Positions 47,794-52,706 of a DNA stretch of 64,000 bases are shown in pieces. Both the position numbers and the translations under genes were made by a program. The notes beneath the pieces are model-generated. The model was not told where the DNA came from. It saw only the letters and a list, made by a program, of their open reading frames with translations, and made no database searches. Within the stretch, counting starts at the first letter, position 1; the number at the start of each line of letters is the position of its first letter. This DNA comes from Loktanella salsilacus (GTDB lineage: Bacteria > Pseudomonadota > Alphaproteobacteria > Rhodobacterales > Rhodobacteraceae): the NCBI RefSeq assembly GCF_900114485.1, contig NZ_FOTF01000011.1:1-64000 (forward strand), given 5' to 3'.

Positions 47794-47836
47794 AATAAGG
47801 CGTACGTTTTATCCGCGGATAAGGTGCCGCCTTATT
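47794..47836. promoter_or_regulatory. Nested palindrome between convergent genes
   Basis: Outer arms AATAAGGCG (47794-47802) and CGCCTTATT (47828-47836) enclose a perfect 14-bp palindrome TTATCCGCGGATAA (47809-47822). It lies in the 50-base gap between convergent genes and overlaps the helicase stop. It could be a bidirectional terminator (A/T-rich arms but no clean T-run) or a protein-binding cruciform. Confidence 0.4.
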
Positions 47837-49373
47837 CGTCGTCCTCTTGCATGGTCAGGGTCAGCGGCGCTGGCCCCTTGTCCAGATCGTCGATCCGCAA
47901 GAACGGCTCTGCCGGTTTCGCCAGACGGTTCCGCACGACCCAGCGCAGCTGGTTTTCGGCCCGCGTGATGGCAACATACGCCAGCCGTTTCCACAGCGGC
48001 TGCCCCGCCTCGACCCGGCCCATGCGCGATGCCATTTCGATATCGGGGGCAAAGACTTGGACCGTGTCCCACTGGCTGCCCTGCGCTTTGTGGATCGTCA
48101 CGGCGGCGCCATGCAGGAACGTCGCGCCCATCTTGGCGGCAAAGGGGATGAACGGCTCTTCATCGCCCTCAAGTTCGATTTTCACGATGCTCGCGGCGGA
48201 CATCTGCGGGTCCAGTGCGCCCAGCACATGCAAACGGCTGAAACCGGGCCGTTTTCCAGGTCCCAGATAGATAACCTGCGCGCCCTTGATCAGGCCGCGT
48301 GCCTCTAGATCGAGCCGCTTTTTACGGTGCTTCACCGGCAATTCGATCCCGTCGCAGATCAGCGGCTCGCCCGGCAGCAGGCTATCGCCCGGCGCGTCAT
48401 AGGCGGCGCGAAAGGCATGGATCAGGCGGATGCGGGTCTTGTTCGTCCAGACAAGGCAGGGCGAGCGGGCCATCAAATCCGCCTCTACCCGCTGCGCCAT
48501 GACGACGCGCTCGTCCTTCTCTGCCGCCTCAGCGACCATGCGTTCAAAATGGTAGAAATCCAGCATCGGATCGGCCAGCGCGTGCGCCAGATCAAGGATC
48601 GGGCTATCCGCGCTTTGCCGGTGGATGCGGTTCAGCGTCAACACACGCTTTTCGGGCAGCGTTTCAAACACCATGCCGCCACTGGATTGCACAGGGGGCA
48701 ACTGCGCCGGATCGCCGAACAGGATCAGCGTGGGAAAGATTTCCTGCAAGTCTTCGAACTGCTTGGCATCCAGCATCGAGGATTCGTCGATAAACCCAAT
48801 ATCCAGCGTCTCTTCACGCCGCTTCCAACCGGTGATGAAATCACTGCCGCGCAGACCTGCGGCAGCCAGCGCAGCCGGAATGGATTTGTGCCCTTGGTAC
48901 GACACATAGGCCCGGTCCAGCGCGACATCGGTCAGCTGTTCCACATCCGGCCGCTCGCCCTGCCCGGCCAGCCATTCGGCGACTTTTTCGTATTCGGGGT
49001 CGTAAACGGGGGTGTACAGGATCCGGTGAATCGTCGTCGCCGGTACGCCGCGATTGCGCAGCACGGACGCGGCTTTGTTCGTCGGGGCCAAAATCGCCAG
49101 CGTGCGTCGACCGGTCCGCTTTTTGCCCTCGTAGTCACCAGAGACGATCTCGACCCCGGCCTTTTCCAGCGCGCGGTAAAGCTCTGCTAAAAGCATCGTT
49201 TTGCCGCTGCCCGCCTTGCCGATCACCGCAAGGACTTCGCTGACGTCGCTTTGCGGCGGCTGCAGAAGGTCATTGTTCAGATCGACGCCGGACTGGCGCA
49301 GCGTCATTTCGACACTGTCCCAAGCGGCGGCCTGATCTTCGGAAAAGGTGATGGTGGGGGCGGGTGTATTCAT
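47832..49373 (-). CDS. RecD-like SF1B helicase, 513 aa
   Basis: This is an AAA/superfamily-1 helicase related to RecD/Dda (UvrD_C_2 type). Visible motifs are the Walker A IGKAGSGKTM (residues 51-60), motif Ia (ILAPTNKAASVLRNRG near 94), motif II FIDESSML, motif III LFGDPAQLPPV (near 219), motif V ALTIHKAQGSQWDTV-like (VTIHKAQGSQWD near 427) and motif VI YVAITRAENQL (near 473). It is a stand-alone protein without RecB/RecC. It follows luxI by 39 bases on the same strand, so it may be in the quorum-sensing transcript. Confidence 0.92.
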   Translation of the reverse strand: MNTPAPTITFSEDQAAAWDSVEMTLRQSGVDLNNDLLQPPQSDVSEVLAVIGKAGSGKTMLLAELYRALEKAGVEIVSGDYEGKKRTGRRTLAILAPTNKAASVLRNRGVPATTIHRILYTPVYDPEYEKVAEWLAGQGERPDVEQLTDVALDRAYVSYQGHKSIPAALAAAGLRGSDFITGWKRREETLDIGFIDESSMLDAKQFEDLQEIFPTLILFGDPAQLPPVQSSGGMVFETLPEKRVLTLNRIHRQSADSPILDLAHALADPMLDFYHFERMVAEAAEKDERVVMAQRVEADLMARSPCLVWTNKTRIRLIHAFRAAYDAPGDSLLPGEPLICDGIELPVKHRKKRLDLEARGLIKGAQVIYLGPGKRPGFSRLHVLGALDPQMSAASIVKIELEGDEEPFIPFAAKMGATFLHGAAVTIHKAQGSQWDTVQVFAPDIEMASRMGRVEAGQPLWKRLAYVAITRAENQLRWVVRNRLAKPAEPFLRIDDLDKGPAPLTLTMQEDDE

Positions 49374-49412: not shown

Positions 49413-50051
49413 TCAGGCCGCCTTTTCTGACGATGCCTGCCCGATTACATGGCCAAAGGATCGCGCGAACCACGCCTCTGATATGGCAGAGCTAACGCCG
49501 GCCCGGCGCAACACCTTCAGCCGGTCATCCGCGCGGTAAGGCCAAAGCCCGACGCTGATCGTATCGCGCCCGGTGCCAGAACTACCGAGCACCTCTGGCG
49601 CGGCACCGATGGCGTTGTAGATGCGGATCATGCGGGCATCGAAGACACCCAGCAGATGGGTCAAGGAGAACGCCCGCATCAATTCCCCGCCCGCCAGCAT
49701 CAGCAGACCAGCGACGCGCGGGCTGGCCCCTTGGGACAGACAAAAGCGGGTGCATTCCCAGATCAGCGGGCTTTTGATTTCGCCGCTCATCAAATCCGCA
49801 AAGTGGTCATTCACCATGGTGCGCCCCGACATCGGCAGAAAGCGCATGGACCCGCCGTGCACGCCGGGCGTCTCCTCCCATACAACGTAAAGCGGGTTCA
49901 TCGCGTCGTATTCATCACGTTTCCAGCCGTTCTTATCGACCGAGACCTCCCACTTCAGGCGGTCGCGGAATTGGGCGGCGCGGTCTTTGTGCATGCTGGC
50001 TTGTAGGTCCGGGTGGCGGTGGAAGTCGTTGGCATAGATGTAGCGAATCAT
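49413..50051 (-). CDS. Acyl-homoserine-lactone synthase (LuxI family), 212 aa
   Basis: This autoinducer synthase makes N-acyl-homoserine lactone from SAM and acyl-ACP. Conserved residues are all in place: RDRLKWEV (Arg, Trp), the DEYD pair (Asp46 and Asp49 equivalents of LuxI), GSMRFLP (Arg), and WECTRF (Glu and Arg). Length is normal. It lies downstream of the luxR-type gene on the same strand, separated by 76 bases; a clear lux box was not found. Acyl chain length cannot be read from the sequence. Confidence 0.93.
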   Translation of the reverse strand: MIRYIYANDFHRHPDLQASMHKDRAAQFRDRLKWEVSVDKNGWKRDEYDAMNPLYVVWEETPGVHGGSMRFLPMSGRTMVNDHFADLMSGEIKSPLIWECTRFCLSQGASPRVAGLLMLAGGELMRAFSLTHLLGVFDARMIRIYNAIGAAPEVLGSSGTGRDTISVGLWPYRADDRLKVLRRAGVSSAISEAWFARSFGHVIGQASSEKAA

Positions 50052-50127
50052 GGCGAAGGCCCCTGTCGTTGCGATGGGGTAGTCTTCGGATCACTTGGTT
50101 AAGAAAATGATGCCCTGCGAACGGTGC

Positions 50128-50910
50128 TTAGTCGGGCGCAACATCGGTATCGCCTTGGCGTCCCGGCCAGCCGCCGGGCGCATCTTTGGCAGCGCCGCCG
50201 ATGATGATCAGCCCTTCGGACAGGGCGCGGGCCACAGCGTGGACGGTGTTGAGGGCACCCAGTTTATGCCGTGCGCTTTCAATATAGGCCCGCAACGTAT
50301 GTTCGGAAATCGACAGCAAATCAGCGGCTTGAGACCGGGAATAGCCCATGCCCAGAAAGCTGAGCGCATCAACCTCGCGCGGGGATAGCGGGCGTATCGC
50401 ATCGGGGGTACGACCTGCTTCGATTTGAAGCGCCTTGGCGTTCAGAAAATGGGCGATCACAATCAAGTCGCGCTGGTAATCAGCGGTGAAGGCGTCCCAT
50501 TCGGCATCTGTCGCAGTGTGCGATAGGGTAAAAAGGGCGAACTGCCCATTAGGGCCGCGTATCGGAATCGTGAAACCCTGATTGCCGACGCCGTGCGCAA
50601 TCGAATCGGCGCGAAATGCCCGGGCGGCCTTTGACGACCAGTCCATCCGCTTCCAATCGACAGGGTGAAAGCGTTGGAAACAGCCCGACACCACCGGATC
50701 GACGCGGATATATTCCATGTCCTGATAGCGTTGCGCCCAGCCGGGGTCGTAGGTTCCAAATCCGTATTGTTCGCCGTCGACGCTGACCCAGTGATAGACG
50801 ACGTGATCGACATTTAACGCCTGCCGCAAGCTAACGATCAGCTCTTGAAGTTGGTCAAGCTGGTCTGTGGCTTCGAGCCGCTGCAAAAAGCGGTTCAGTT
50901 TGTTCCGCAT
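50128..50910 (-). CDS. LuxR-family autoinducer-binding transcription factor, 260 aa
   Basis: It has an N-terminal autoinducer-binding domain (Autoind_bind, residues about 25-165) with the key Trp/Tyr/Asp residues visible in YHWVS, GWAQRYQDMEYIRVDPV and VDWKRM, followed by a GerE-type HTH (about 190-250): LSPREVDALSFLGMGYSRSQAADLLSISEHTLRAY. The start ATG at 50910 is used because upstream residues in the longer frame are not family-like; the small ORF upstream overlaps the first 56 bases. It is expected to bind the LuxI product and control promoters of this operon and others. Confidence 0.93.
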   Translation of the reverse strand: MRNKLNRFLQRLEATDQLDQLQELIVSLRQALNVDHVVYHWVSVDGEQYGFGTYDPGWAQRYQDMEYIRVDPVVSGCFQRFHPVDWKRMDWSSKAARAFRADSIAHGVGNQGFTIPIRGPNGQFALFTLSHTATDAEWDAFTADYQRDLIVIAHFLNAKALQIEAGRTPDAIRPLSPREVDALSFLGMGYSRSQAADLLSISEHTLRAYIESARHKLGALNTVHAVARALSEGLIIIGGAAKDAPGGWPGRQGDTDVAPD

Positions 50911-51076
50911 CAATGCGCACCCGGCCTGCGTGGCCCTCGGATGTCGACGCGATTTCTGCCGATGCCACGACTGCGGCTTCACGCATCCGATCCGCCACAA
51001 GAGGCAGACCATTTTGGAACGCGAAAGACTCCAAGTCGGCCAGAACGTCGATTATCCACTTATGTCCCACGTTCAC
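50855..51076 (-). CDS. Small conserved-looking ORF overlapping luxR, 73 aa
   Basis: This ORF starts GTG 51076 (alternative GTG 51070, 7 bases after GGGAG, probably better) and overlaps the luxR start by 56 bases in another frame. Sequence features are a Trp/Ile/Leu-rich N-terminal helix WIIDVLADLESFAFQNGLP and a Glu/Ala-rich second helix. I recall similar small ORFs ahead of luxR in other roseobacters, which supports it being real, but the C-terminal third sits inside the luxR frame and may be free to drift. No known domain. It might help couple luxR translation or act as a small regulator. Confidence 0.6.
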   Translation of the reverse strand: MNVGHKWIIDVLADLESFAFQNGLPLVADRMREAAVVASAEIASTSEGHAGRVRIDAEQTEPLFAAARSHRPA

Positions 51077-51091
51077 ACTCCCTTACAAATC

Positions 51092-51108
51092 GTTAATGAG
51101 TCATTAAC
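51092..51108 (-). promoter_or_regulatory. Perfect CtrA-type box at the head of the quorum-sensing operon
   Basis: GTTAATGAGTCATTAAC is a perfect 17-base dyad and contains TTAA-N7-TTAA (51093-51107), the full CtrA recognition pattern. It lies 16 bases upstream of the small-ORF start. A second, shorter palindrome with the same half-site, GTTAATTTAAC, is at 51126-51136. A CCCCC/GGGGG hairpin (51159-51175) is a little further upstream. The rest of 51109-51311 shows no gene. Confidence 0.6.
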
Positions 51109-51311
51109 AACTCAAGGTAGCACGCGTTAATTTAACAAAATACTCACTTCTTAAGCCTCCCCCGATATAGGGGGGTGCCAGCCGCACAAACATTTGACTT
51201 CAAACGATGGGCGTCACGGAACCGACTTGACGGGTACCAAAGGCCCTTTGCTGGGCGCAGGGCGTGCAGGTCAGTGATTGGTCATACAGATGAACAGATT
51301 CTAAATGGCAA

Positions 51312-51359: not shown

Positions 51360-52640
51360 TCAGCCGCGCGATTCAAACTGCGCGTCTTCAAAGGTGCGCA
51401 AACCGGTGCGCGGGCTTTGCACCAGCACGGCCATGTTGCCGGGCTTATGCTCGTTCTTGCGCATCTTGGTGTGAGCGGCGGGGATGTCGTCCCAGCCGAA
51501 CACTTCGGACATGCACGGATCAAGGCGGCGTTCGACCATCAGGTTATTGGCGGCAGAGGCCTGCTTGAGGTTCGCAAAGTGGCTGCCCTGCAACCGCTTT
51601 TGGTGCATCCACATATAGCGCACGTCAAAGGTCAGGTTGTAGCCGGTGGTGCCGGCGCAGATCACAACCATGCCGCCGCGTTTGCACACGAAGGTTGAGA
51701 CGGGGAAGGTCGCCTCGCCGGGGTGTTCAAACACCATGTCGACGTTGTTGCCCTTGCCTGTGATCTCCCAGATCGCCTTGCCGAACTTGCGGGTCTCGTT
51801 GAACCATTCTTTGTATTCGGGCGTGTTTACCGTGGGCATCTGGCCCCAGCAGCTAAAATCATTGCGGTTCAGCACGCCCTTGGCCCCCAGCGACATGACG
51901 AATTCGCGCTTGGATTCGTCTGAGATGACGCCGATTGCATTAGCCCCTGCCGTATTGATCAGCTGGATCGCATAGGACCCGAGGCCGCCGGAGGCCCCCC
52001 AGACCAGCACGTTTTGACCGGGCTTCAGGTCGTGCGGTTCATGGCCGAACAACATGCGGTAAGCGGTCGCCAGCGTCAGGGTGTAGCAGGCGGATTCTTC
52101 CCACGTCAGGTGCTGCGGGCGGGGCATCAATTGCTGCGACTGCACACAGGTGAACTGGGCGAAAGAGCCGTCAGGGGTTTCATAGCCCCAGATCCGCTGG
52201 CTAGGCGAGAACATGGGATCGCCGCCATTGCAGTGCTCGTCATCGCCGTCGTCCTGGTTGCAATGAATCACAACCTCGTCGCCGACTTTCCAGCGCTTCA
52301 CCTTGTCGCCCACAGCCCAAACGATGCCAGAAGCGTCGGAACCGGCGATGTGGAAATCGGCGCCGTGCACGTCAAACGGGCTGATCGGCACGCCAAGGCC
52401 CGCCCAAACGCCATTATAGTTGACGCCAGCGGCCATCACCATGACCAGCACTTCATGACTGTCGGGCTTGGGGCAGGCAACGATTTCGACCTCGAACGCC
52501 TTTTCAGGCTCGCCGTGCCGTTCGCGCCGGATCGTCCAAGCGTACATCTGGTCCGGCACATGGCCAAGGGGCGGCATTTCACCGATTGCGTAAAGGGGCT
52601 TTTGGCTCGCCTTGGTGGCGGGGTCCAGATCAAGGGGCAT
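51360..52640 (-). CDS. ccrA: Crotonyl-CoA carboxylase/reductase, 426 aa
   Basis: This is the key enzyme of the ethylmalonyl-CoA pathway: crotonyl-CoA + CO2 + NADPH gives ethylmalonyl-CoA. It is an MDR-family dehydrogenase with the GEMPPLGHVP start, VMAAGVNYNGVWAGLG near residue 70, the NADPH loop VLVWGASGGLGSYAIQL near 195 and VFEHPGEATFPVS near 300. The ATG at 52640 is used because GGAGA lies 5 bases upstream and the N-terminus then matches the known Rhodobacter enzyme length; ATGs at 52664-52667 are alternatives. It has its own promoter region and terminator. Confidence 0.96.
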   Translation of the reverse strand: MPLDLDPATKASQKPLYAIGEMPPLGHVPDQMYAWTIRRERHGEPEKAFEVEIVACPKPDSHEVLVMVMAAGVNYNGVWAGLGVPISPFDVHGADFHIAGSDASGIVWAVGDKVKRWKVGDEVVIHCNQDDGDDEHCNGGDPMFSPSQRIWGYETPDGSFAQFTCVQSQQLMPRPQHLTWEESACYTLTLATAYRMLFGHEPHDLKPGQNVLVWGASGGLGSYAIQLINTAGANAIGVISDESKREFVMSLGAKGVLNRNDFSCWGQMPTVNTPEYKEWFNETRKFGKAIWEITGKGNNVDMVFEHPGEATFPVSTFVCKRGGMVVICAGTTGYNLTFDVRYMWMHQKRLQGSHFANLKQASAANNLMVERRLDPCMSEVFGWDDIPAAHTKMRKNEHKPGNMAVLVQSPRTGLRTFEDAQFESRG

Positions 52641-52706
52641 GTCCGTCTCCATCATTGCATCCATCATATTTTTGCCGCGCTGCAGAGTCGGCTTCTGTGC
52701 CTGAGT

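Follow-up and report, generated by a model that had tools for sequence, protein, structure and literature searches.

A TTAA-N7-TTAA box of the CtrA type stands at a fixed place before a small ORF, luxR and luxI, all on the minus strand, both in the 64,000-nucleotide stretch of DNA analysed here as a whole (the window) and in most of its relatives: the exact motif was found within the 70 bp before the small ORF at 132 of 155 orthologous loci, a raw count that ignores phylogeny among loci sharing ancestry. The presence of a CtrA-type box at the luxR operon, as claimed in the first-pass annotation, is thereby borne out, and the box is very probably a real CtrA operator of the small-ORF/luxR/luxI operon. 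It overlaps the predicted transcription start, and on this geometry a direct repressive effect of CtrA, by occlusion of that start, seems to us an even call. Activation, for which the genetics of Dinoroseobacter shibae speak, is possible, if on the doubtful side.

Gene context and conservation of the box

The genes around the box follow the Roseobacter topology B (crotonyl-CoA reductase, luxR, luxI, helicase), which is the commonest luxRI arrangement in the Roseobacter genomes studied by Cude and Buchan (2013; PMC3824088). A reductase-like gene precedes luxRI and a helicase gene follows it (Table 1), the name of the former being taken from the topology, with a match at domain level only (zinc-type dehydrogenase). 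For luxR, the domain search was run from 50919. The small ORF shows the signature of a coding sequence, with pS of 0.56 vs. pN of 0.14 over 205 pairs and a median dN/dS of 0.16, the other frames being without such a pattern. No Pfam or NCBIfam family and no family or solved-structure match was found for its product, which is predicted to form a two-helix hairpin (residues 2-19 and 23-47) with a disordered tail, the mean pLDDT being at least 90 over residues 1-40.

Table 1. Features of the luxRI region in the window, ordered by coordinate
Feature	Coordinates	Strand	Evidence
Helicase after luxRI, topology B marker	47832..49373	-	AAA_30, UvrD_C_2
luxI, AHL synthase	49413..50051	-	Pfam PF00765 (Autoind_synth)
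TTAAC half-site upstream of luxI	50098..50102	-	TTAAC within 140 bp upstream in 89/110 loci
luxR, autoinducer-binding regulator	50128..50910	-	Pfam PF03472 (Autoind_bind), PF00196 (GerE); start from ORF table
Small ORF, 71 aa, GTG start, overlapping the luxR start	50855..51070	-	155/158 loci; coding signal
Shine-Dalgarno-like AAGGGAG of the small ORF	51078..51084	-	Purine-rich SD kept among relatives
Putative CtrA box GTTAATGACTCATTAAC, operon-strand reading, TTAA-N7-TTAA(C)	51092..51108	-	Sequence; orthologous box in 132/155 relatives
Predicted +1 (inferred), first base of TTAA-N7-TTAA	51107..51107	-	7 nt after the -10-like element
Extended -10-like element TGCTACCTT (TG-n-TAnnnT)	51114..51122	-	TGnTAnnnT near box in 122/132
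Second palindrome GTTAAATTAAC, operon strand	51126..51136	-	GTTAAnTTAAC in 1/132; weakly conserved spacer
GTGAGTATT, counterpart of conserved GYGAAT, about -40 to -35	51139..51147	-	155-promoter alignment
Conserved CC[CT]CnCnATTTnnGGGGAG dyad, centre about -60	51157..51175	-	CC[CT]C-N9-GGGG in 114/155 promoters
Crotonyl-CoA reductase-like gene before luxRI, topology B marker	51360..52664	-	ADH_N, ADH_zinc_N

In the window, the 17 bp of the box (GTTAATGAGTCATTAAC) form a perfect palindrome, within which the exact TTAA-N7-TTAA occupies positions 51093-51107. A distance of 16 bases to the small-ORF start had been given earlier; this holds for a GTG at 51076, whereas the start conserved among relatives is the GTG at 51070, which the first T of the box precedes by 37 bases. 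The motif occurs twice in the window (mean of 0.10 in dinucleotide shuffles, of which one in 100 reached two) and 41 times in the whole genome of 4.13 Mb, vs. 28 for a reversed control pattern. With so many control sites, the motif alone is weak, suggestive evidence within a single genome, and the comparison between genomes decides. As for the 40 genomic sites other than that of luxR, 37 lie between ORFs (as delimited by a crude ORF caller), no flagellar set was evident among neighbouring genes judged by eye, and their reading as a CtrA regulon was dropped. One of them (L282:100-114, contig G000:C16) lies 57 bp before an ORF that resembles, by eye, a microbial rhodopsin.

A LuxR orthologue at E <= 1e-50 was present in 225 of the family's 394 genomes (almost all of different genera), and the upstream DNA was read at 158 luxR loci orthologous to that of the window, with close to one locus per genus and seven from the genus of the window. 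The 158 loci comprise 149 of the 150 matches listed, eight further loci (L002-L006, L012, L016, L017) and that of D. shibae (L137); a genome whose contig starts too close to the gene (G149), loci with a split gene or weak matches (L018-L030) and weaker LuxR matches were left out. A motif-based search found the same small ORF at 155 of these loci. It is missing from three (L196, L204, L228), which all lack the box too and stand outside the 155.

The spacing of the two half-sites is strict: spacings of N3-N6 and N8-N12 gave 0-3 of the 155 loci, five other 70-bp segments gave none, and 50 shuffles of the 155 promoters yielded TTAA-N7-TTAA 0.9 times on average, with a maximum of 6. When up to one mismatch is tolerated, the box is found in 146 of the 155 promoters, the left half being the altered one in 12 of the 14 one-mismatch cases. 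Since the spacer, of which 99 distinct versions exist among the 132 exact boxes, and the flanks vary freely, we argue that the half-sites are held by selection. Only two of these 99 versions are palindromic, which removes the weight placed at first on the perfect palindrome of the window. The right half reads TTAAC in 121 of the 132 boxes and tends to extend as CATT (TTAACcaTT), and the conserved motif agrees with the CtrA motif of D. shibae, quoted as TTAAC-N5-GTTAAC (PMC7232146). The position is equally constrained: relative to the small-ORF start, 130 of the 132 boxes have their first base between -34 and -38, and 110 have it 36 or 37 nt before the start codon. In a separate but overlapping retrieval of 80 named loci, not pooled with the main set, 70 carried the exact box. 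The conservation of the box across Rhodobacterales luxR loci, which the first-pass annotation had proposed to check, is thus supported by the 132 loci of the main set.

The second palindrome, GTTAATTTAAC, is present upstream of the box as described earlier. The helper role suggested for it did not survive comparison, GTTAAnTTAAC being found in a single one of the 132 box-bearing orthologues, namely the window itself. Half-sites of any kind occur in this stretch in 22 of the 132 (shuffle mean 7.2, maximum 16), and may have a minor role in some lineages.

Promoter architecture and the possible direct effect of CtrA

An alignment of all 155 promoters, unselected for the box, gave four conserved blocks: CC[CT]CgCcATTTctGGGGAG, GYGAAT, TGcTAnnnT and the box itself. 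The first is a dyad (CC[CT]C..GGGGAG) and a candidate activator site, perhaps for LuxR or another activator. TGnTAnnnT, which resembles an extended -10, stands at about the right place in 137 of the 155 promoters; among the 132 box-bearing ones, 122 have it no more than 18 nt ahead of the box (shuffle mean 4.4), which places the predicted +1 on bases 1-3 of the box in every one of the 122. A Shine-Dalgarno stretch is conserved between the box and the start codon of the small ORF, which would place the 5' end of the mRNA upstream of this stretch.

In Caulobacter, CtrA half-sites over the -10 repress and activating full sites lie mostly near -35 (PMC4287350, PMC6180460). At the luxR operon, the box would cover the start in the 122 promoters above, as in repressed promoters, on the basis of a predicted start. 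The elements of an activated promoter, i.e. a box near -35 followed by a -10, were found in far fewer: TAnnnT stands where an activating box would need its -10 in 7 of the 132, below the shuffles (mean 15.4). This test is weak, because the same-genus ctrA promoters, taken at their printed positions as a positive control, have TAnnnT in place in only one case out of seven. CtrA-activated promoters of Rhodobacter sphaeroides, for their part, carry the site around -35 and, downstream of it, only an A at -11 that is invariant (PMC6180460). The start inside the small ORF that had been suggested as driven by CtrA therefore finds no backing in a -10 hexamer, although proven CtrA promoters of the order may lack a clear hexamer. 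As a whole, the geometry favours occlusion of the predicted start. A search of the open-licence literature found no footprint, ChIP or start-site map for this promoter and no useful published start-site map of Roseobacters.

We propose that the promoter of the small-ORF/luxR/luxI operon contains the box as an integral and conserved CtrA operator. An activator-dependent promoter, consisting of the dyad at about -60, GYGAAT at about -40 and the extended -10 TGnTAnnnT, would start transcription inside the box, and phosphorylated CtrA, occupying about +1 to +16, would directly occlude this start, so that the output of quorum sensing would have CtrA as its brake or timer. That CtrA has a net positive effect in D. 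shibae would then be due to other routes, e.g. the loss of C14-AHL synthesis and autoinduction in the mutants.

The data from D. shibae bear directly on this operon. The 86,208-base contig of the D. shibae genome used here (G066) matches NC_009958.1 with 100% identity over 6,001 bases, and its luxR2I2 genes form the orthologous operon, with the box TTAATGTTTCGTTAAC in the same place. The link between CtrA and AHL signalling named for this species by the first-pass annotation is thus supported and concerns luxR2I2 itself (PMC4046655). Wang et al. (2014; PMC4046655) reported that the luxR2 promoter has two perfect CtrA sites and that luxR2I2 expression falls strongly in ctrA, cckA and chpT deletion mutants. 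In 450 bp of this DNA a single TTAA-N7-TTAA was found, and since TTAA-N7-TTAAC matches it once on each strand, we suspect that the two reported sites are a single palindrome, read once per strand. No box was found within 700 bp at three further LuxR-like loci of D. shibae.

Direct activation of the operon by CtrA, with a start some 35 nt past the first base of the box, at or near the small-ORF start codon, that would give luxR mRNA, is the reading that these mutants suggest most readily; together with the control of CtrA by quorum sensing, it would close a positive loop from quorum sensing to CtrA and back. The distance of 36 or 37 nt between the box and the start codon in most loci is likewise that of Caulobacter activating full sites near -35, and when AHL is added, ctrA increases at once and luxR2I2 follows from 20 min on (PMC6473078), a time order which, like the fall in the mutants, fits activation better than occlusion. 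The promoters argue the other way: the conserved extended -10 lies upstream of the box instead of downstream, the Shine-Dalgarno sequence sits between the box and the start codon, and the deficit of TAnnnT counts as a further point, weakened by the ctrA promoters and by the R. sphaeroides pattern. For the idea, already in the first-pass annotation, that CtrA represses the small-ORF transcript, this means support from the geometry and opposition from the expression of luxR2I2 in the mutants. A family-wide start-site switch, in which CtrA over +1 shuts the activator-dependent promoter and then either caps quorum sensing or shifts the start into the small ORF, is put forward tentatively, at rather less than even confidence. 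In its capping version, the switch and the known positive effect would together make an incoherent loop; with a second start inside the small ORF, net activation in D. shibae would become compatible with a repressor geometry.

That another regulator with a TTAA-like half-site, either of the Fnr/Dnr type or LuxR itself, uses the site appears improbable. The Dnr/Fnr site of D. shibae, TTAAC-N4-GTCAA, has the same half-site, and luxR2 mRNA is increased in the fnrL and dnrE mutants (PMC7232146). Such a regulator would, however, give TTAA-N6-TTAA, which occurs in 3 of the 155 promoters vs. 132 for N7, so that an Fnr/Dnr-type site was rejected for its spacing, and the TTAACcaTT extension is CtrA-like; for LuxR, the separate conserved dyad upstream is the better candidate. 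A chance match or an inherited, functionless sequence, for which the 41 genomic sites vs. 28 controls and the broken ctrA of this isolate could be cited, is scarcely credible, being contradicted by comparative data in which the exact spacing persists while the spacer takes its many forms, and a chance origin is ruled out by the conservation among orthologues.

A separate effect of CtrA on luxI, apart from the luxR promoter, is possible, because TTAAC (often TTAACCAT) is enriched upstream of this gene (89 of the 110 loci, within 140 bp, vs. a shuffle mean of 9.1 and maximum of 18); it would complicate the reading of the mutant data. The luxI start was obtained for 110 of 124 loci. The distance between the TTAAC and a CTAnnnT-like element differs, by eye, between lineages, and the CC[CT]C..GGGG dyad was found upstream of luxI in only 5 of 76 loci.

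The luxI leader (50052-50102 in the window) was folded for 106 loci, four having been dropped for a doubtful luxI start. Its Shine-Dalgarno region is paired in the predicted fold in 104 of these 106 orthologues, with a mean z of -2.0 relative to shuffles and 75 of the 106 below -1, and the arm sequences differ between genera. The fold could perhaps serve translational control of luxI.

Lineages without the box or without an intact ctrA

In Phaeobacter inhibens, the homologous pgaRI1 is unchanged in ctrA, cckA and chpT mutants (PMC12363192). The genome used here (G427) has 99% identity to P. inhibens plasmid DNA over 3,301 bases, and its 520 bp before luxR contain no box, even with one mismatch, nor the small ORF, TGnTAnnnT or the dyad. 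All seven genomes of the genus searched (L319-L325) lack the box, the dyad and the small ORF before luxR, and TGnTAnnnT occurs somewhere upstream in three of them. The presence of the box thus agrees with CtrA dependence in the two species out of two for which data exist, a comparison in which the box is confounded with the rest of the cassette, all of which Phaeobacter lacks.

The second case is the isolate of the window. When its genome was searched with the CtrA model NF045991, the sole CtrA-grade match, of 207.8 bits, was a C-terminal half (model positions 119-224) located close to the end of contig C58 (G000:C58:48132-48808, L257), the other matches being other response regulators of at most 166 bits. 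Codons 1-19 of ctrA lie near the end of contig C33 (G000:C33:211118-212285, L268) and run into an IS66-type element; from about codon 118, the gene borders on an element of the IS5 family, for which the genome gives 16 matches. The middle part of ctrA was not found in the genome assembly, which thus holds no intact ctrA. Of the eight other same-genus genomes searched, seven have an intact ctrA (414-432 bits), and the eighth (G008, 92% complete) gave no ctrA match at E <= 1e-60. Either two insertions or an insertion with a deletion would explain the break, and a short contig between two IS copies could also be missing from the assembly. A ChpT homologue is present in this genome. As ctrA is not intact, CtrA control of the luxR operon is predicted to be lost in this isolate, where the box still fits the family pattern, and the proposed brake should be absent since the gene is interrupted.

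Two natural experiments are available in these lineages: the box is missing in Phaeobacter, and this isolate has it but apparently lacks ctrA. Were the start-site switch true, lineages would either drop it wholesale, as in Phaeobacter, or lose CtrA, as here.

Comparison with known systems

In Ruegeria sp. KLH11, quorum sensing by SsaRI controls ctrA, and a feedback on SsaRI has been suggested (PMC3692519); the KLH11 motility promoters reportedly have no clear CtrA boxes (PMC3692519). The CtrA-repressed promoters of Caulobacter (PMC4287350) share with the luxR operon a CtrA site over the core promoter, with the difference that half-sites lie over the -10 there, whereas here a full site would lie over the predicted +1. 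The gene order is that of topology B of Cude and Buchan (PMC3824088), in the available text of which the small ORF and the promoter are unmentioned; this conserved small ORF before luxR is an uncharacterised and testable component.

The closest system is luxR2I2 of D. shibae (PMC4046655), an orthologous operon with the same box in the same place and a reported dependence on CtrA, and its comparison with the present data exposes a conflict between the promoter geometry and the published mutant data. Ruegeria pomeroyi, Roseobacter litoralis and Octadecabacter were also listed with CtrA sites in that study, which covered 89 genomes and described their occurrence as scattered and independently evolved (PMC4046655); here, the box keeps a fixed place in most of the loci and overlaps the predicted start. 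No description of a fixed family-wide cassette, of the overlap with a predicted start or of the small ORF was found in open-licence papers. CtrA at Roseobacter quorum-sensing promoters has been in print since 2014. What is new is the fixed, family-wide architecture: the CtrA sites predicted at quorum-sensing genes of Roseobacters, so far a scattered list, can now be read as instances of a single conserved promoter design.
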